A DNA stretch of 64,000 nt from Trissonchulus latispiculum (Eukaryota; Nematoda; Enoplea; Enoplida; Ironidae), in contig JASAND010012982.1 of NCBI GenBank assembly GCA_030248195.1, forward strand, positions 1-64,000, in the 5' to 3' direction. Of this stretch, positions 23,997-64,000 are shown in pieces. Under the pieces are notes generated by a model. It was not told the origin of the DNA and did not search any database. It was given only the letters and a program-made list of their open reading frames with translations. A program made the position numbers and the translations under genes. The stretch's first letter is position 1. Each line of letters starts with the position of its first letter.

Positions 23997-25560
23997 TTAT
24001 GGGGCTGCTGACGTCGCACCCTTAAGAAAATGTGACAAAATGTGACATTTCCATAGTAAACTTTTAAAACCAGAAAGAGTAGTTGCTGTTACAACTTCAT
24101 TTGGTAAGCTATTCCAGATAGGTATAACTCTGTTGGAGAAAAAATTAAAACGGCACATTATTTGAGATGACTCTCTCTGCAATTTGCGCTCATGGCCACG
24201 GTTACTCACAGAAAGGCTTTCGGAGAAAAAATTTTGAAAATCAGTATCAACAAATGTTGCAGTAGTTTATATACCATAACTGAATCCTTTATGAGACGTC
24301 TTTCTTCTAAACTACGCACATTTAGGGCTTTCAATCTATTTGGATAACTTAAATTTTTTAAACCAGGCAATTGTTTAGTAAACTTTCTCTGAATCCCTTC
24401 AACAAGGTTGATATCTTTAACATAATGAGGCGACCAAACCTCTGAGGCATATTCAAGCTTAGGTATAACATAAACTGCGAACAACTTCATCATAAATTCT
24501 GCATTATTCGTTTCAAAACATCGTAATATTAGATTTGCAGTCTTTGCGGCTGAAACTGCAGCGGAAGAGCAATGCCTTTCAAATTTTAAATTGTTTTGTA
24601 TGATTACACCCAAGTCTTTGGCACTCTCTACAGCTGCTAGTTGGCAACCAGAAAGACTGTGTGAAACACATGGATTTGCGCTGCCTATATGCAGGACCGT
24701 ACATTTACTGACAGCAAGATTCAACTGCATCTTGACGAACCAGTCACTTAAATTACAAAGATCTTGTTGGAGTAATGCTGTGTCAGTTATTGTGTTAAAG
24801 GCTATATAAACTTTAGAGTCGTCAGCATAAAGTTTAATTTCAGAATTTAAAACCACATTTTCTAGATCACTAATATATACTAAGAATAGGATTGGACCTA
24901 ATATGCTTCCTTGAGGAACACCTGATGAGATCATCAGAATTTGTACCTCTAAGTGAAACATATTGTTGTCTATTAGTCAAATAATCACGTATCCAATTGA
25001 ACAAAAATTCAGGAACTTTGTAAGCAGACAGTTTCTCCATCAATTTATTGTGAGAGACACAATCAAAGGCTTTTGCAATGTCCATGTATATAACATCTAT
25101 AAAATTCCCTTTATCAACAGCTTTAGTCCAATCATTCAAGCATTGAAGCAGCTGCGTAACAGTGGAACGGCCGGACCGAAATCCGTGGTGTTTTGTTGAT
25201 ATAAACTTGTTTTTTAATAAATATGTAGTTAGTGCTTTGGCAACAAAGGATTCCAAATACTTACTACACCCGACTAGTAAACTAATTGGTCTGTAGTTAC
25301 TAAAATTTGACTTGTCTACTTTTTTAAAGACCGGTGTAATCTTGGCTACTTTCCAGTCTGATGGAATCTTACCCAAAGCTAAAGAAACCCTAAATATAGT
25401 AGACAAGGGAAACATATTGAAACGGCAATTTTCTTGAGAAAGAATTGAGGTAAATTGTCATAGCCAGCACTAAGCTTGGATTTGGACTTTAATATGCAGT
25501 CGTAAACATTTTTGTCCGTAATTATAATTTCAGGAAAAGGACAAACAGGCTGTTTTATTC
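23997..25560 (-). pseudogene. LINE reverse transcriptase, frameshifted
   Basis: Fingers/palm motifs in minus-strand order: YRPISLL, HGFRSGRST, then the motif A region DIAKAFDCVSHNKL (25090-25040), motif B GVPQGSILGP (24920-24890) and the catalytic LYADD (24840-24820). The tail ends with VIPIWNSLPNEVV. At least two frameshifts break it, near 24925 (between motifs A and B) and near 24230; the 5' part (25416-25840) is also scattered over frames. All the catalytic motifs of an RT are therefore visible but not in one frame, so the copy is dead. Confidence 0.93.
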
Positions 25561-25845
25561 TGCAATTTATGGACTTACCATCATCGGTGATGAAAACTGA
25601 AGTAAAGAAAGAGTTAAAAAGAGACGCTTTTTCGTGATCCTCGAACGCATAAGTATTTACTCCAGATTTTAGAAAAGGAATGTCTGATTTGATATTGAAT
25701 TTAGACCTAAAAAATTCCAGTAAGTGTTTTGACAGTGCGAATTTAATATCATTTGTTCTCGGTGGAACAGATCGGGTCTTTTGAGATTTTTAGCTATTTT
25801 AATGCTAGTTTTCCACTTTCGACGATTTTCGGCTGATGGACACAA

Positions 25846-26823
25846 TCAATATTTATGATACAGTCTTAATTGCCGCTGGGAAGCTTTTCGTGTGGCTTTA
25901 GACCATAGTTGTTTTCTAATGTTATTACGAACAACCATCCAGGGCACAAAATGTGATATAGCAGTATCTAGATGTGTTTTGAACGTTAGCCAGAAATCGT
26001 CGATAGTAGCGCATCTTTGAAATTCAGTTTGCCAACAAATACTCAGAAGATACCTGTTTATTTCAAAAAAGTTTGCCTTATGAAAGTTTCTAGTCGGAAT
26101 AAAATTTGCAGTTGGCATTTGTTGCAAAGCTATATAACCTTTTACAATGTTATGATCGGAGTTTGAAAAGGGAATATCAACTTGAACTGCTGAAATAAGA
26201 TTGGGTTCATTTGAAAGTAGTAGGTCGAGAATGTTACCCTGTTCATTAGTACTTTGAAGCACATGTTGTTGGAAACCCAAGGTTAAAATTTCAGTAGCGA
26301 AGGTTCAATCCGGCTCAGTTGTTGCAGTGATATTATCGGATTCCCATATTATGTTAGGGTAGTTAAAATCACCCATTAAAATAGTACGTACGTGGGAGTA
26401 TTTTTGAATATGGCTACATAATGCTTCAGTTGAACTCTTGCTGTCAGTACTGGGCGACCGGTAGACCAGGCCAATATATGTGCAATCATTAGAATTGCTC
26501 AAGATTTTTACCCAGACAGCTTCAAAATAGTTATTTTTAACCTGTTCAACTTGAAGAAAATCCAAGTTTTTGGGAAGCAATAAAGCCACGCCACCCCCTC
26601 TCCCTATATTAGCATCACGGTTACAGCAAAGAACAGAATGAGTTACCAAAATTGAACCAAAAATAGCATCACCTAATTCATCAGACAACCATGTTTCAGT
26701 TATAGCAAAAATGTTATTTGTGTTATTAGAAACAAGATATTGCAAATCTACCAATTTAGAAACAATACTGAGTGAGTTTACGAGCATAAAGTTACTCAAA
26801 CATCGGACTCCGGCGGTGGCCAT
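25846..26823 (-). pseudogene. LINE endonuclease and linker, one in-frame stop
   Basis: The minus-strand frame from 26823 contains ITETWLSD (catalytic glutamate region), GRGGGVALLLP, YRSPS and MGDFNYPNI (aspartate/asparagine motif). A single TGA near 26304 interrupts it; the same frame then continues with the NILDLLLSN and SDHNIV motifs that complete the APE fold. So the endonuclease motifs are present, split only by one stop. Confidence 0.92.
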
Positions 26824-26983
26824 TTCCCTGCAGTGGCTTTGTGATAATCTTCCCTCCTCGGATGATCAGGTTGGGTTCAATGTGATTGGTTTATCCCTTA
26901 AGACATAAGACAAAAGTTGAGCCTAGCCCAAGTCTGCTTTAAGACAAAAAACGTAAGACATAAGACACCAGTGTGAACCAGGC

Positions 26984-56889: not shown

Positions 56890-57165
56890 AAAAACTTTAT
56901 TTTTTGCGAAGTTCGCCTTTTTTGCGAACTTCGCGAACTTCGTGACATTTCGCCAAATTTTGCGAACTTCGCGAAGAATTTTTCGCGATGTTTCGCGAAG
57001 TTTTTTCAGTTAGCTAATTGAGGGGTTTTCTCCATAGTAAAAAACAAAAAGTTCAGTGGGCGAGCAAAATTTCAATTTTGTTTTGATTCAAGTCCAAACT
57101 TCGCGAATTTCGTGAACTTCTCCAAATTTCGCGAACTTCGCGAAGGATTTTCGCGAAGTTATTAG
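56890..57165. repeat. TTCGCGAA word-repeat region
   Basis: GCGAAGTTCGC, TTTTGCGAACTTCGCGAAC and related words occur more than ten times in two clusters (56905-57000 and 57098-57160) around a spacer. It resembles the other word-repeat elements, although TTCGCGAA is itself palindromic, so orientation is not informative. Termini are not defined. Confidence 0.65.
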
Positions 57166-58189: not shown

Positions 58190-59238
58190 TGTGACGGATC
58201 GAATCTAACTAGTACATAACAAAAAAAACAGAAATTAACAAACACGTCTAGCTATTTATTGCTTACGTATTACAATAAATTTAGAACGATATATAAATAA
58301 AATTTATATATGAAAAATGCAAATCTATCAGCTACTTCTAGGTACGTTAACATTATCTAATGTCTAGGGTTTGCTTCGTACTGCCGTTGTAGCTCCTTTC
58401 TAGCTTTACTGCTAGTGGCAGTCTTGTTTTCGTTGATGTGAAGCTGTCGTAGGCTACCGTAGGACAACCACATTGTTTATTGGTGGATTTCGGAAAGTCA
58501 TATGAATGTAATTATTGGATGGAAAATTGGTCTGGGGGAAGGGTTTGAGGTAATTCTAGGAATTACCATAAGTCTGACATTTTGAGTTATAGTTTCAAGA
58601 ATTTTCATAGTTTTTATATTTCCTGCAAAAGTCTAAAAATGTCGAAAACAAAATTAGTAAAGCCAAAACATGAAAAGGGCCGACACAGTTTGAAGAATAG
58701 CTGGCCTAACTCGAAAAGCAAAAGCAACGAAAGAACCTAAAAAGTGAGCCGAAAACAGGCTCCCAAAAAGACTATCGACGCAACGGGAGGGCGGAGTTTG
58801 CTAACATATAAAAGTTCCTGCAATTGCTGTTTTGGGTGCTTGGTATCATATCTGCAGTGGCTTGGTGTGGTGGCTTGTTCTGTAACTGCGAATAAACGAA
58901 ACTTAATAAAGAGACGACTGGACTTCGACTTCGTAGTGTAGAGAACTTCGGTTAGACTAGACTTGTCGGCGATCCACTTGGAGGATAGATTTAATTCTAG
59001 TTAGAGGCCGGGGGTTCACACCTAAGCCTAATTAAATTAATCCAAACTTAGTAGTTTTGTGTGCAAGTCAGTGTGAGGGTGAAATCCCAGCACTTGACAG
59101 AGTTTACAGAAAGTTCAGAGTCAGTGTGAGGGTGCGATCCCAGCACTTGACAGTTTAGAGTTTAAAGTAAATTTCCACTGCGCCGGCTCCCGTTCTGCTA
59201 CCAGTTACCTGGCACACTCTCAGTTCTGCCTTGCCACA
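58190..59238 (+). mobile_element. 5' LTR of an env-bearing retrotransposon
   Basis: The proposed LTR starts TGTGACGG and ends TTGCCACA, giving TGTG...CACA ends. It has a TATAAAAG box at 58807-58814 and AATAAA signals at 58891 and 58905. A 34-bp direct repeat (GTCAGTGTGAGGGTG...CACTTGACAG) occurs at 59067 and 59120. The 3' end is fixed by the primer-binding site two bases later; the 5' end is inferred from the terminal symmetry, since the 3' LTR is outside the window. Confidence 0.7.
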
Positions 59239-59240
59239 AT

Positions 59241-59258
59241 TGGTAGCAGAGCGTGGTT
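59241..59258 (+). other. Primer-binding site
   Basis: TGGTAGCAGAGCGTGGTT lies 2 bp after the LTR end and would pair with a tRNA whose 3' end is GCTCTGCTACCA. The sequence TCTGCTACCA at 59194-59203, within the LTR, is its perfect 10-base complement, so the site may be held in a stem. Confidence 0.8.
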
Positions 59259-59339
59259 GCCTGAACAAGTCTAGCGAAGTCCGCCGAACTTAAACGAACA
59301 CACCAAGCCACTGCCACCCTTTTTGTTGGGTGACAGCGC

Positions 59340-59639
59340 ATGAATCAGTGGCCACAGCAGTCTGCCACAAACTTTCAGCAGACGTATCCGCCTGTGGAAC
59401 TATCAGCATCAACAACTCTGCCACTGCAGACCGCTCAGCTACCGGTGACTCTGACGGTCCCAGTCATTGTCCAGATACCCAGGCAAATTGCAGCAATTTG
59501 CCCCGTCTGTCAACATTTCCTGGAGATCCTTGGGGAGCCATCAGGAAGTCCGCAGCCGTCCGGAAGCCTGTTTCCGCCAGGACCTCAGCCAGTGGATCTA
59601 ACCCTCGGAAGACCGGTGTTGGGACGTCCTAGCCAGTGA
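59340..59639 (+). CDS. Leader ORF, Pro/Gln-rich, 99 codons
   Basis: It starts MNQWPQQSATNFQQTYPP and ends in a proline-rich tail, with one CPVCQHF segment (C-x2-C) in the middle. It lies between the primer-binding site and gag. The overlapping frame at 59330-59632 is also open, and no homolog is recognised, so it may be either a small accessory protein or leader RNA. The downstream TTTGGTGGGTATCTGAG (59693-59708) could hold a splice donor. Confidence 0.35.
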   Translation: MNQWPQQSATNFQQTYPPVELSASTTLPLQTAQLPVTLTVPVIVQIPRQIAAICPVCQHFLEILGEPSGSPQPSGSLFPPGPQPVDLTLGRPVLGRPSQ

Positions 59640-60043
59640 TCCGTGGAGAAATCCTGATCTGTCCGACCAGATCCTGCTTGGATGTCAACTTTTTGGTGGG
59701 TATCTGAGTACTTTGGATAATTTTGTTGTAATTGTAGTTTATTGTGTGGTTAGAGTTGAAGAATACATAAAACGTGTTTTAACTAGTTGTGATTAGAATA
59801 TAAACTGAATCAAACGCGGTTAACGTACGAATCTGGTATCTCCAAGACCGTACAAGCGTATATATAATTTCGAGACGGACACGTGGTTCACCGACCAACG
59901 CTCCCGATCGAAGAAGTGACCGAAAGATCGCAAAAAGAAAATTTTATTGGTCCCAGAAGAGTTAAACTTTTGGAATTTCTAGAAATTTTGAGAGTTTATA
60001 GATTTGTTTGTAAACCGTAAAATTTCATTGTGCGTTACGCTGT
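59640..60043 (+). other. Untranslated leader before gag
   Basis: No long frame. An in-frame stop at 60011-60013 precedes the gag ATG, fixing 60044 as the first ATG of the long frame. Confidence 0.6.
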
Positions 60044-61285
60044 ATGGCTGACGGAAAGGGTGGGTTTGACGACACAAATAACTCTCAACCTTTTCCGCAA
60101 AATCCAGACTACGACCGCCTGGAGCGGCATTCAAAAGCGATAAAAACACAAGCAAAAATGCTTGAGGATATGAAAGATGAGTTAGCCACGTGCACTCAGA
60201 GAATTTCAGAATTGCCGGATGTCACTGAATTTCAAGATTTTTCAAATTTGAAAGATGACTTTTTGGCTTTTAAGCAAAGTTTTTTCAACACTTTTAATGC
60301 GGCCACACCAAGTCAAAAACCGGTCTTGGTGGGTCCGACAGAGACTGTTTCACTACCGAAAGATACTTTGAGACCTTTTTCTGGAAAATCTGACGAACAG
60401 TCCATAGATGACTGGTTCGTAGTCTTTAAATTAGTGGCTATCGCCCAGAATTGGGACGATGCCAAGCAATTACAAGTACTTCCTGCATATTTAAGAGATT
60501 TTGCGCTTGATGTTTACAGAAATTTGGATCCGTCTCAAAAGGATACTGTAGAGCATTTGGAAGCTGCTCTTACAGAACAACTTAAACCTGCTGAGTATGA
60601 AAGGCTTGCGAGCATGCAACTTCATAGCAGAACTCAAAAACCTCGAGAAAGCGTTCAAGATTTTGCTTATGCTATTCAAAGATTAGTTCAAAAGGCTTAT
60701 CCAGAAATGGATTCTGATGCAGCAATGAATTTATCTTTTAACAGTTTCATAAATGGGTTAAATCCTATGTATAAAACTCAGTTAATTTTGCAAAATCCTA
60801 TCGATTTTCGGGATGCCATCAAAAAGGCTCGTCAAATCGAAGCTCTAGAAGGTTTGACGAGGCCGGCATCCAAACCAGTTGCTGCGTACTCATTTCCGCA
60901 AACAGAAAAGCAGCAAACTAATTCCGAAGTTGAACCTTTACTCACAGAAATGGGTAAAGTGGTGGAAGCAATGAAGTTGCAGCACTCGCAAGCAATTACT
61001 CAGGCCAAAAAGTTTGAGCAATTTCAGCAATACGTTAATGAAAATTTATCGGAATTACGTAACAAAATGGATCAAAGTTTTTCTAGTGCAAGAAATTCCG
61101 GTCCAATACCGGCTCAAAACATGATGAATTCAAATTCTCGCAATATAGACCGCCGACCACAATCACAGAATCGGAGCAATCAGCCACAACTAAATCGGGG
61201 GCGTTGGACGGCGGATGGCCGCCCTGTGTGCAATTTCTGCTCAAAACCTGGTCATTACGCTATGTCATGTCCTCAGAAACGACAA
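60044..61285 (+). other. Gag portion (capsid and CCHC nucleocapsid)
   Basis: Residues 124-142 (DWFVVFKLVAIAQNW and following) and the LPAYLRDFA, LNPMYKTQL and ARQIEALEG segments follow the helical plan of the Ty3/Gypsy capsid. The zinc knuckle at 61229-61270 is intact. Role: particle assembly and RNA packaging. The part after the knuckle is glutamine-rich and coiled-coil-like, and would link Gag to the membrane-targeted part. Confidence 0.9.
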
Positions 61286-64000
61286 GGGGGTCCTCCAGCG
61301 GGACGGTCTCCTAATTTCAGTGGTCCGACTCGAAATTATAGTCAAGCTGGACCTAGTCGTACCCCAGCTGCTCCCATAAATCGGCGAACAGGATATTTAC
61401 AAGAGAGTCCGGTTACAGGGTCGCATTTACAAACAGAGTTAACAGATATAACTATGACATTAAAAGCTCTACAAGACGGTCAGCAAATTATAGCTAAAAA
61501 CCAACAAAATTTACAGTCTGCCTATGTGCAAGTCAGGCAGGAAAATGAAGCATTATTCGAGCAAAATCGTCGCCTGGCTCAGAGAGTTTATGATGAAAAT
61601 GAAACTACTCCTAAGATGATAGGATCTATAAAAATTGACTCCTCTAGTACTCAAATTGCACAATCAAAAATTCAGACTATTACAACGCCCAGAGTTAAGG
61701 CCAAAAATAAGAAAGTACTGGGCAAGCCAAAAGATAGTGTTAGTGCTCCTAACCGTGCAAAATGTCCATTTATTCAAGGAAACAGTTATTTTTCATTACT
61801 TCTTTTTAGTGTCAGTATTCTGAGCATAATACTGGCAGGAAGCAATTTTGCATCTGCTGTACCGGTCCCGGAGCGACCTTTACTCTGTCAGACTAAAGAT
61901 GGCAAAGCGCTCTGGCAATTACCTGAATCTGTGCAATGTGCGGTTCAAAAACATGTTGATGAAGGTGTCCCCTTGGACACAGAGTTAGCTCTTTACAAAC
62001 ATAATCTGATACAGTATCGGACAAAAGCTTGGCGATGCAAAATTGTGTACCAAAAAGTCGAAACTTTTACTTATTTCTTCGCAGATGAAAATTTAAAGAA
62101 GGAGGAGAAACAGGATATACCGGTTCATGAGCAAGAATGCGAAAATATGCATCGCTGGCATACTTGTCGTTATGGCAGTCTAGAGAAAAAGGGTGGACTT
62201 TGGCAAACTACCAACAAACTTGACTGGTATTACCCGGGAGGTGGTATAAATTGTTGTAAATGGAGGGTTTTTGAAGTTTACAATTGTTTTGTGACAGAAG
62301 GAGTGGTATATAAAAGGCATCATAATGATTTTATGGAAAGTTCGTTGGGAGTTACCACTCATTGTGATTATGCTCGTGGGGGATGTGCCCTATCGGATCG
62401 AAGCTTTTTAACGTGGCAAATTGACCAGAGTGAAAAGTGTGAATTTGTTCCTTGGAAAAATGTTAAGGGGCAAATGTGGGGAGCAAATTGGCTTTCCGAT
62501 GATGGGACTTTAGCTCTAACTTATCGAAATGCCTATACTGCTCATGACTGCCGTAACAAACAAGTATTCATATCTGAGCAAGGGGTGCCATTTCGCATTC
62601 TGTCTCAAAGGCAGGCTCCGAAATTAAGGCGCCCGCGCCAAGTTAGTGAGAATCGTATAGGTAGAAAGGAAAAAGTAGTCAAAATACTTGACGGATGGGT
62701 CAAAGAACATGGTATCGTTACTACAGATTTACTAGCTACAATGCTACAAGCTATAGAGTTCCGGTTGCATAAAAATATAAGATTCGCATTCGACCAAACC
62801 ATGCATTCTATTTGTTCATCCATGCAAAATGTAATCGAAATTTTAAAAGCAGACATACTAGCTAATCCCACTCTAGCTATGAGAGCCTTACTACAGAGAG
62901 CTGAAATTTTTGCCAGAGCTGGCGGGCCAGTAATCGAAGTATGGCCTTGCCAAGAAGTCGATAGTACGTATAAATTTTTACCTATGAATGATTCAACCTG
63001 CACACGTGAAATTCCAGTAGAATTTACTGTTCTTAATCGTTCGCACATGGCATATCTTGACCCAGTCACAAACATACTACATCATTCAGGGCGTCCAATT
63101 GAATGCGAATTTGCTAATCAAGTTCCACTAAAACTAAGTAATCAAACTTATCTGTACCATGCCTTTGATGGTTCAGTCTTACCCATAAACGGTATCCCTG
63201 ACTTAAAAGCTTTTGATTGGAACTTATCGTCTCCTTGGAATTTTGAAGCTACTATTTTTCATGAGATAGTTATGTATAATTTCAGCGATCTAGAAACTTC
63301 AGTTTCTCTTAATGACTTGTTAGGAGGGGTTCAATTTCAACAGCAAATTTTGGCTGAATTAGGAGTAATAGGTCAAATAGCTAGTAATCCTAAGGATGCG
63401 GCTAAAGGTATGGTTTCTTCCATTATGAACAAAGGATTTTTCGGATTTTTGACGGGATATGGAATAAGTCCTTTTCAAATTTGGGTCTTTCTAGTTTGTC
63501 TATACGTAACCTCTTGTTTTCTCATAATTCACTGTTGCCCATTACCTACTAGCCCGATGGCCTCGTTTAACTTGCCTGAGCTATTGCCACGGTTGTGGAC
63601 GTGGATTCGGGGTAGATCGAAAAGGTCTACAGAAAGTGAGGCCAACCCAATCTTTGAAGCATTAGACTTGACACCCCCGGCAAGAAGTGTACCTACTCCA
63701 ACTATGCCTAGGCCACCTACAATAATAGTTACTGCCGATTCACCTAGACTGTACCCTAGGTTAAGTCAAGCTTATGAAAACCAATACTTGTTACCTAGAA
63801 CAGCACACACAAACGAGGCTAATAGCTACGTATCTAGCGCAACTTTTCTCCGACTACCCCCACCCGTCCCTCCTGAATTAGATCTGGCAGAATACCTACC
63901 TCGGCAAGCATTAGCTCTGCCAGCATTACCTAGGTCGACCAGTGTTATTAATTTAACAAATGGGGCTGGAACGGTTAAAATAGTAATTGAAATTGGTGGG
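60044..64000 (+). CDS. Gag-Env-like polyprotein of an LTR retrotransposon, open at window edge
   Basis: The frame runs 1319 codons without a stop and continues past the window. In order: a short N-terminal part; a Gypsy-like capsid region (about residues 105-270) starting at RPFSGKSDE; a zinc knuckle CNFCSKPGHYAMSC (396-409, C-x2-C-x4-H-x4-C); a coiled coil (about 460-520); a hydrophobic segment (582-605); a cysteine-rich ectodomain; an RRPR site (862-865); five N-glycosylation sequons (982-1081); a transmembrane segment (about 1146-1165); a proline-rich linker; and a terminal VKIVIEIGG that looks like the first strand of a retropepsin. Usual Gypsy order is Gag-Pol-Env, so Env between Gag and protease is exceptional. 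The lack of any stop over nearly 4 kb suggests a recent or selected copy. Other readings: a Gag-Env element without pol, or a chance fusion. Confidence 0.93.
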   Translation, partial: MADGKGGFDDTNNSQPFPQNPDYDRLERHSKAIKTQAKMLEDMKDELATCTQRISELPDVTEFQDFSNLKDDFLAFKQSFFNTFNAATPSQKPVLVGPTETVSLPKDTLRPFSGKSDEQSIDDWFVVFKLVAIAQNWDDAKQLQVLPAYLRDFALDVYRNLDPSQKDTVEHLEAALTEQLKPAEYERLASMQLHSRTQKPRESVQDFAYAIQRLVQKAYPEMDSDAAMNLSFNSFINGLNPMYKTQLILQNPIDFRDAIKKARQIEALEGLTRPASKPVAAYSFPQTEKQQTNSEVEPLLTEMGKVVEAMKLQHSQAITQAKKFEQFQQYVNENLSELRNKMDQSFSSARNSGPIPAQNMMNSNSRNIDRRPQSQNRSNQPQLNRGRWTADGRPVCNFCSKPGHYAMSCPQKRQGGPPAGRSPNFSGPTRNYSQAGPSRTPAAPINRRTGYLQESPVTGSHLQTELTDITMTLKALQDGQQIIAKNQQNLQSAYVQVRQENEALFEQNRRLAQRVYDENETTPKMIGSIKIDSSSTQIAQSKIQTITTPRVKAKNKKVLGKPKDSVSAPNRAKCPFIQGNSYFSLLLFSVSILSIILAGSNFASAVPVPERPLLCQTKDGKALWQLPESVQCAVQKHVDEGVPLDTELALYKHNLIQYRTKAWRCKIVYQKVETFTYFFADENLKKEEKQDIPVHEQECENMHRWHTCRYGSLEKKGGLWQTTNKLDWYYPGGGINCCKWRVFEVYNCFVTEGVVYKRHHNDFMESSLGVTTHCDYARGGCALSDRSFLTWQIDQSEKCEFVPWKNVKGQMWGANWLSDDGTLALTYRNAYTAHDCRNKQVFISEQGVPFRILSQRQAPKLRRPRQVSENRIGRKEKVVKILDGWVKEHGIVTTDLLATMLQAIEFRLHKNIRFAFDQTMHSICSSMQNVIEILKADILANPTLAMRALLQRAEIFARAGGPVIEVWPCQEVDSTYKFLPMNDSTCTREIPVEFTVLNRSHMAYLDPVTNILHHSGRPIECEFANQVPLKLSNQTYLYHAFDGSVLPINGIPDLKAFDWNLSSPWNFEATIFHEIVMYNFSDLETSVSLNDLLGGVQFQQQILAELGVIGQIASNPKDAAKGMVSSIMNKGFFGFLTGYGISPFQIWVFLVCLYVTSCFLIIHCCPLPTSPMASFNLPELLPRLWTWIRGRSKRSTESEANPIFEALDLTPPARSVPTPTMPRPPTIIVTADSPRLYPRLSQAYENQYLLPRTAHTNEANSYVSSATFLRLPPPVPPELDLAEYLPRQALALPALPRSTSVINLTNGAGTVKIVIEIGG
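61787..63560 (+). other. Envelope-glycoprotein-like portion
   Basis: It begins with a 24-residue hydrophobic stretch (YFSLLLFSVSILSIILAGSN...) ending in ASA, a good signal-peptidase context. The first ectodomain part (606-861) is cysteine-rich with no sequons; RRPR at 862-865 fits a furin-type site; the second part (866-1130) has helices, a C-TREIPVEF segment, all five sequons, and an amphipathic region before the membrane segment at 1146-1165 with a CC pair at its end. The order resembles glycoproteins of negative-strand RNA viruses (Chuviridae and relatives), which LTR elements are known to have captured; this resemblance is an impression from motif order only. The frame is unbroken. Confidence 0.72.

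Follow-up and report, generated by a model that had tools for sequence, protein, structure and literature searches.

The closest described systems to the element reported here are the planarian Burro elements, published in 2019, in which env lies in frame between gag and pol; they exceed 30 kb, and their first open reading frame (ORF1) spans 4,873 or 5,140 amino acids and includes, depending on the species, MATH, BIR, BCL2, ankyrin, SUMO-like, dUTPase-like and midasin domains (PMC6431247). In Roo, Tas and Cer-7 Env lies downstream of the polyprotein, according to the accessible part of PMC7642597, and the accessible part of PMC10084718 describes no clear capture of a Jingchuvirales glycoprotein by Gypsy elements. 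Here we analysed a window that covers positions 1-64,000 of contig C8813 in a 733.8-Mb assembly; since the window opens the contig, window and contig numbering are identical. Towards its end begins a 20,052-bp long terminal repeat (LTR) element (58190-78241), one provirus-like copy with many others in the genome, whose Gag and Pol flank an Env-like glycoprotein encoded in the same frame. An initial annotation had proposed this arrangement, which we found to be kept across families of copies, and had stated that no described element shows it, a statement that Burro contradicts (PMC6431247).

A single frame of 2588 codons (60044-67810) encodes Gag, a signal segment, Env, a membrane anchor, retropepsin, reverse transcriptase (RT), RNase H (RH) and integrase (IN). 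Within the window it covers 1319 codons (60044-64000) and is still open at the edge, and the other five frames of that interval hold 62-115 stops apiece; beyond 64000 it stays open until the stop at 67810. As the initial annotation had anticipated, a retropepsin match starts at about 63962 and runs past the window edge, protease, RT, RNase H and integrase follow in the same frame, and a 3' LTR lies downstream, 99.5% identical to the 5' LTR over 1050 alignment columns; the pair therefore delimits the 20,052-bp span. When scanned as separate pieces, pol matched the Pfam models gag-asp_proteas (2e-7), RVT_1 (1.9e-38), RT_RNaseH (2.4e-20), Integrase_H2C2 (9.7e-18) and rve (1.2e-13). This protease (PR)-RT-RH-IN order is standard for Ty3-type elements and fits a Ty3/gypsy (Metaviridae) pol, and the TG...CA ends of the LTRs fit an LTR element of the same type; no Pfam model that we take to be BEL-type was reported for the pol pieces at E values up to 0.1. 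The putative primer binding site may resemble the 3' end of the animal initiator Met tRNA. Upstream of pol, Gag gave weak Pfam matches (PNMA 0.0083, Ty3_capsid 0.015, zf-CCHC_2 0.015) but was matched by blastp, at E values of 8e-9 to 2e-27, in five of the six database proteins of the same order described below; its end at 61451 is a cut of ours and no mapped site. The hydrophobic segment that follows (61796-61852) has a Kyte-Doolittle mean of 2.04 across 19 residues, and in 10/10 copies examined a hydrophobic 16-mer ends 6-8 residues ahead of the matched Env start. Env carries five sequons, with starts between 62987 and 63278. The CCHC Gag, the internal signal segment, the clustered sequons and the anchor had all been recognized in the initial annotation, and each was confirmed.

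Table 1. Coordinates of the features of the element, in contig numbering (the window ends at 64000).
Feature	Position	Strand	Details
5' LTR	58190-59238	+	1049 bp, TGTGA...CCACA ends
Untranslated leader	59239-60043	+	805 nt, LTR end to Gag ATG
Putative primer binding site	59240-59256	+	TTGGTAGCAGAGCGTGG, read at the LTR end
Gag, capsid-like, with one CCHC zinc knuckle (61229-61270)	60044-61451	+	Weak Pfam, blastp
Gag-Env linker, basic, poorly conserved	61452-61795	+	Open in 10/10 copies
Internal signal segment, hydrophobic core and cleavage-like SNFASA	61796-61858	+	Hydropathy, 10/10 copies
Env, gB-like class III fusion glycoprotein (moderate confidence)	61859-63541	+	Pfam PF24664, Foldseek, VIA-align
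RRPR, minimal furin-type site	62627-62638	+	Motif in Env
Membrane anchor within Env	63479-63535	+	Hydrophobic segment
Env tail and proline-rich Env-protease linker	63542-63961	+	Open in 10/10 copies
Retropepsin start	63962-64000	+	In frame onward to PR, RT, RNase H and IN, to 67810
Exonuclease-NADAR ORF	69260-71410		716 codons, NADAR 1.4e-34
Unknown ORF	from 71474
Second Tribbles-like protein	in 72299-73405		TRIB1 1.1e-21
3' LTR	77193-78241 (past the window edge)	+	Partner of 58190-59238

Next, we looked at the other copies. Searching the genome with Env returned at least 80 matches, with identities from 100% down to 48%, a lower bound since 78 of 1,006 candidates were scored. By our count, 21 of the 80 scored matches belong to open frames that reach 2,400 codons or more; others are broken or cut by a contig end. 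The position of Env was unchanged in copies down to 48% Env identity, so the fixed order for which the initial annotation had proposed to check other copies is indeed found there. Both linkers (Gag-Env and Env-PR) were open in 10/10 copies belonging to several families, and for each linker the proportion of nonsynonymous differences was below that of synonymous ones (pN < pS) in 8/8 pairs, that is, in 16/16 comparisons, in which the Gag-Env stretch also includes the end of Gag and the Env-PR stretches of other copies reach into the protease. For Env the ratio of nonsynonymous to synonymous substitution (dN/dS) was 0.033, 0.038 and 0.019 in three of eleven pairs, the other eight being saturated at synonymous sites, and 0.009 between the window copy and the copy on contig C1162. 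Judged by these four unsaturated pairs, Env is under strong purifying selection.

In two families, represented by C20827 and C17118, the LTRs were identical over 861 columns and 99.8% identical over 616 columns, respectively, and 4-bp target-site duplications were seen by eye (TTAC and GTAG). Near-identical LTRs, target-site duplications and intact frames therefore point to recent mobility of the group; the LTRs of a further copy (C17984) are 94% identical.

Env exceeded the cut-off of Pfam PF24664 (6.4e-9) and matched viral glycoproteins and gB both by Foldseek and by VIA-align. By sequence and predicted fold we assign it, with moderate confidence, to the class III (gB/rhabdo/nyami-like) fusogens.

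Beyond its own genome, the Env search returned 7 proteins; two of them (P0003 and P0006) carry Env and then retropepsin within one protein, and another (P0007) is a Caenorhabditis japonica protein with a 23% Env match. The pol search gave 7,605 proteins, and among the 120 listed there are six in which Env lies between Gag and RT (P0039, P0066, P0067, P0087, P0092 and P0117), 2,293-2,499 amino acids long and with Env identities of 19-22%, and one with a weak Env trace only (P0057). Gag was found by blastp in all of the six except P0087, whose precomputed Pfam list includes PF03732, which we take to be a retrotransposon gag domain, and the protease was matched after Env in all except P0092. A scan of IMG/VR with Env gave five pattern matches with no relative among them. 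We then placed the database relatives and the genome's own copies, with no named reference clades, in two trees: one of 86 rows, for which 42 rows with matches too long or too short had been set aside beforehand, and one of 40 rows hand-picked from these 86, which omits P0057, P0095 and P0097 among others. Elements with the Gag-Env-Pol order cluster in the trees (0/500 shuffles as low); in the 40-row tree they form, together with six Env-less proteins, a supported group of 20 rows (99/97), and an approximately unbiased test on this tree did not reject a single clade (p 0.113).

Four accessory ORFs lie in the 9.4 kb between pol and the 3' LTR: two encode Tribbles-like pseudokinases, one encodes exonuclease-NADAR and one is unknown. 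TRIB1 was the best solved match of both kinases (1.9e-40 and 1.1e-21), followed in the second one by SIK3 and TRIB2. HRD and DFG are the catalytic motifs of kinases; neither was seen by eye in the Tribbles-like proteins, which we therefore call pseudokinases, and no motif resembling DQxVP, through which the C-terminal tail of Tribbles binds COP1, was seen by eye in either ORF. The exonuclease-NADAR ORF also matched a solved NADAR chain (2.1e-12) and, weakly and slightly under the cut-off, a 3'-5' exonuclease; no homologue of it was found at E <= 0.001 among 7,991 candidates scored in a large protein collection. All four are present at 97-99% identity in C1162, with LTR matches on both sides. 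C12823 has them in that order too, at 44-63% identity, and its Env and pol are 82% and 86% identical. Judged from these identities, the accessory proteins either evolve far more quickly than Env or have been exchanged. Their dN/dS was 0.11-0.25 in the seven unsaturated of ten comparisons, consistent with purifying selection. Exonuclease-NADAR also follows pol in C8717 and C10583, the latter with a Tribbles-like kinase as well, and by our count the distance from the start of Env to that of the first Tribbles gene is 6.1-6.3 kb, on the same strand, in 13 contigs. In the families with 48-49% Env identity (C17984, C17118 and C20827) two ORFs of ~265-355 amino acids replace the Tribbles/NADAR set; four ORFs scanned from C17984 and C20827 gave no Pfam match. 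Pyrimidine-rich AG sites lie 7-44 nt ahead of the ATG in some accessory ORFs, which suggests that these genes are made from spliced RNAs. A spliced-leader pattern had no match within the window, and neither did an Rfam SL1 search of the genome, in which the controls were equally silent.

Taken together, our results favour, with a probability of about 0.74, a Ty3/gypsy-type LTR element that behaves, or did until recently, as an enveloped retrovirus with a Gag-Env-Pol polyprotein. Its full-length RNA would be translated into one Gag-Env-Pro-RT-RH-IN polyprotein. From the anatomy of the chain, Gag would remain cytosolic, the internal signal segment would open the translocon of the endoplasmic reticulum, and signal peptidase would cut ahead of VPVPE; the Env ectodomain would then be lumenal and undergo furin-type processing, and the anchor would bring the chain back to the cytosol, where retropepsin would cut the linkers. 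A cytosolic Gag and Pol with a lumenal Env fits the hydrophobic segment before Env, present in 10/10 copies, and the anchor after it. Class III fusion by Env would serve entry, and the two Tribbles-like pseudokinases, exonuclease-NADAR and the unknown protein, probably made from spliced RNAs, would be accessory proteins acting against host signalling or ADP-ribosylation defences.

Several observations weigh against this proposal. With the flanks read by eye, no target-site duplication was found around the window copy or around C17984. The predicted Env model is of moderate confidence (mean predicted local distance difference test score, pLDDT, 60; predicted template modelling score, pTM, 0.34), and its Foldseek TM-scores are about 0.3. 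No Gag Pfam match exceeded its curated cut-off. The furin-type RRPR site named in the initial annotation is present but satisfies only the minimal R-X-X-R pattern and is thus a weak one; several relatives have fuller basic sites at roughly its position. The Gag-Env-Pol order has to change 5 times on the 86-row tree, where starred branches force at least 2 of these changes, and 2 times on the 40-row tree, for which a single clade appeared in 0% of 200 bootstraps; a single gain plus a single loss of the order would fit. Sequences resembling 3' splice sites precede only some of the accessory ORFs, not all. Finally, an output of Gag, Env and Pol at 1:1:1 is unusual for a retroelement, and some Env or Gag may come from other mRNAs.

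An alternative is that, as in retroviruses, a spliced or internally initiated mRNA is the main source of Env, and that the fused frame is tolerated and not used. The splice-acceptor-like sites ahead of several accessory ORFs would suit it, as would Met codons 471 and 525, which lie between Gag and the signal segment in the window copy. However, no AUG is conserved ahead of the signal segment, and in 5/10 copies the 60 residues that precede it lack a Met, so a conserved private start for Env is unlikely; moreover, the two linkers remain open and constrained in all ten copies, though most of the compared Env pairs are synonymously saturated. We thus consider this route unlikely as the main source of Env.

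The polyprotein reading also has to be weighed against two further explanations. That the 9.4 kb after pol are nested foreign DNA or host genes outside the element is improbable: although ~3.5 kb before the 3' LTR are mostly unmatched in C1162, C13288 shows no cargo match in the 9.9 kb after pol and the whole window copy lacks a framing duplication, the four ORFs recur between LTR matches in C1162 and in order in C12823, exonuclease-NADAR follows pol in two more contigs, and the ORFs are under purifying selection. Hardly credible at all is the idea that Env is a one-off or recent capture in the window copy, or a decayed passenger. Some copies do have stops within Env and some related elements are Gag-only or lack pol, but Env keeps its place down to 48% identity and in the six database proteins. 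An insertion in one copy is ruled out by the other genomic copies and by those proteins, and decay is ruled out by the dN/dS values of Env (0.009-0.038).

The Gag-Env-Pol order in many copies, together with host-like signalling and ADP-ribose genes, suggests that the element represents a poorly known group of enveloped retroviruses. A wider formulation, which we put forward tentatively and at somewhat less than even odds, is that of an unnamed, widespread clade of enveloped Ty3-type retroviruses that would make a gB-like fusogen as part of the Gag-Env-Pol chain, through a flavivirus-like internal-signal topology, and would have acquired host Tribbles and an ADP-ribose-reversing exonuclease-NADAR as fast-evolving anti-host weapons. 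Retroelements usually keep Env separate from Gag-Pol, a rule broken here by a membrane-inserted Env that lies between the two; since strong selection preserves it in many copies, its assembly route is directly testable. Our findings suggest that the published remark on Burro reflects something broader, show that Ty3-type elements of an apparently non-flatworm host carry a Monjiviricetes-like class III fusogen, and add Tribbles and NADAR genes to the known cargo of LTR elements; the fast change of these genes suggests that host signalling and ADP-ribosylation are fields of conflict in an invertebrate. In the literature, most subscription papers being outside our reach, we found no paper that describes the element or reports Tribbles or NADAR genes in one of its kind.

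Several related loci were seen along the way. At C413:15491-20100, LTR matches separated by 5.4 kb enclose a short element in which Gag is matched at 92% in broken form and neither Env nor pol is matched at E <= 1e-5; it is probably a non-autonomous derivative. In a deletion derivative at C15805:59876-68853, Gag and the first 374 Env residues are followed by a portion of the unknown ORF and by the second Tribbles gene; LTR matches flank it, and pol is unmatched. Across the genome NADAR appears to be greatly expanded, with 2,478 candidates at first look and at least 150 scored matches; most sit in frames of ~140-300 codons, others in frames of 552-731 codons like that of exonuclease-NADAR, and at seven contigs (C5525, C6995, C16016, C4624, C6935, C18947 and C2406) they lie near a same-strand Tribbles-like ORF. 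Tribbles-like domains at 26-32% identity are found inside frames of 1,815-2,934 codons at nine places, one with an internal stop. Another family (C263:3000-6842 and C263:7689-12500) has one open frame of 2,888 codons in the order Gag-PR-RT-RH-IN, PWWP (9.6e-15), Tribbles-like domain and a ~750-amino-acid end, which has no clear Pfam match and in which features like those of a signal, a furin site and a fusion peptide were seen by eye; by these features the end is perhaps a class I Env. In the window itself, short TTCGCGAA-type repeats cluster upstream of the 5' LTR (56902-57152), and broken frames resembling a non-LTR retrotransposon (endonuclease and reverse transcriptase by eye) occupy 24206-26865 on the minus strand.

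Finally, we compared the element with the known systems. Errantiviruses have LTRs, Gag, PR-RT-RH-IN and an Env for entry, with Env after Pol. Retroviruses share the same components, but their Env, generally of class I, follows Pol and is expressed from spliced RNA (accessible part of PMC10309623). Anakin, a BEL/Pao element of mosquitoes, is likewise an LTR element with an acquired glycoprotein, in that case from a chuvirus, but it has a BEL/Pao pol whereas ours is Ty3-type (accessible part of PMC7642597). The core-E1 region of hepatitis C virus offers a parallel for the topology, with a capsid protein, then an internal signal sequence that signal peptidase cleaves, then an envelope protein (accessible part of PMC5402940); the virus is unrelated and the likeness is an analogy only. 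Burro apparently differs in its host. A mitochondrial DNA insert in the present genome (C17523:26800-32500), with frameshifts, COI and, by eye, probably ND2, reads with genetic code table 5 (ATA=M, AGA=S and AAA=K in the second half of COI, the first half of the translated stretch being out of frame); the COI may be arthropod-like. Flatworms use another mitochondrial code, which speaks against a flatworm host. Compared by description only, our element is also smaller (20.05 kb, ORF1 of 2,588 amino acids), its accessory genes are separate ORFs after pol, and the ORF1 pieces scanned gave no Pfam matches of the MATH, BIR or BCL2 type. What the two share is a single ORF with env between gag and pol, an Env akin to the fusion glycoproteins of mononegaviruses, host-like accessory domains and the suspicion of a provirus (PMC6431247).

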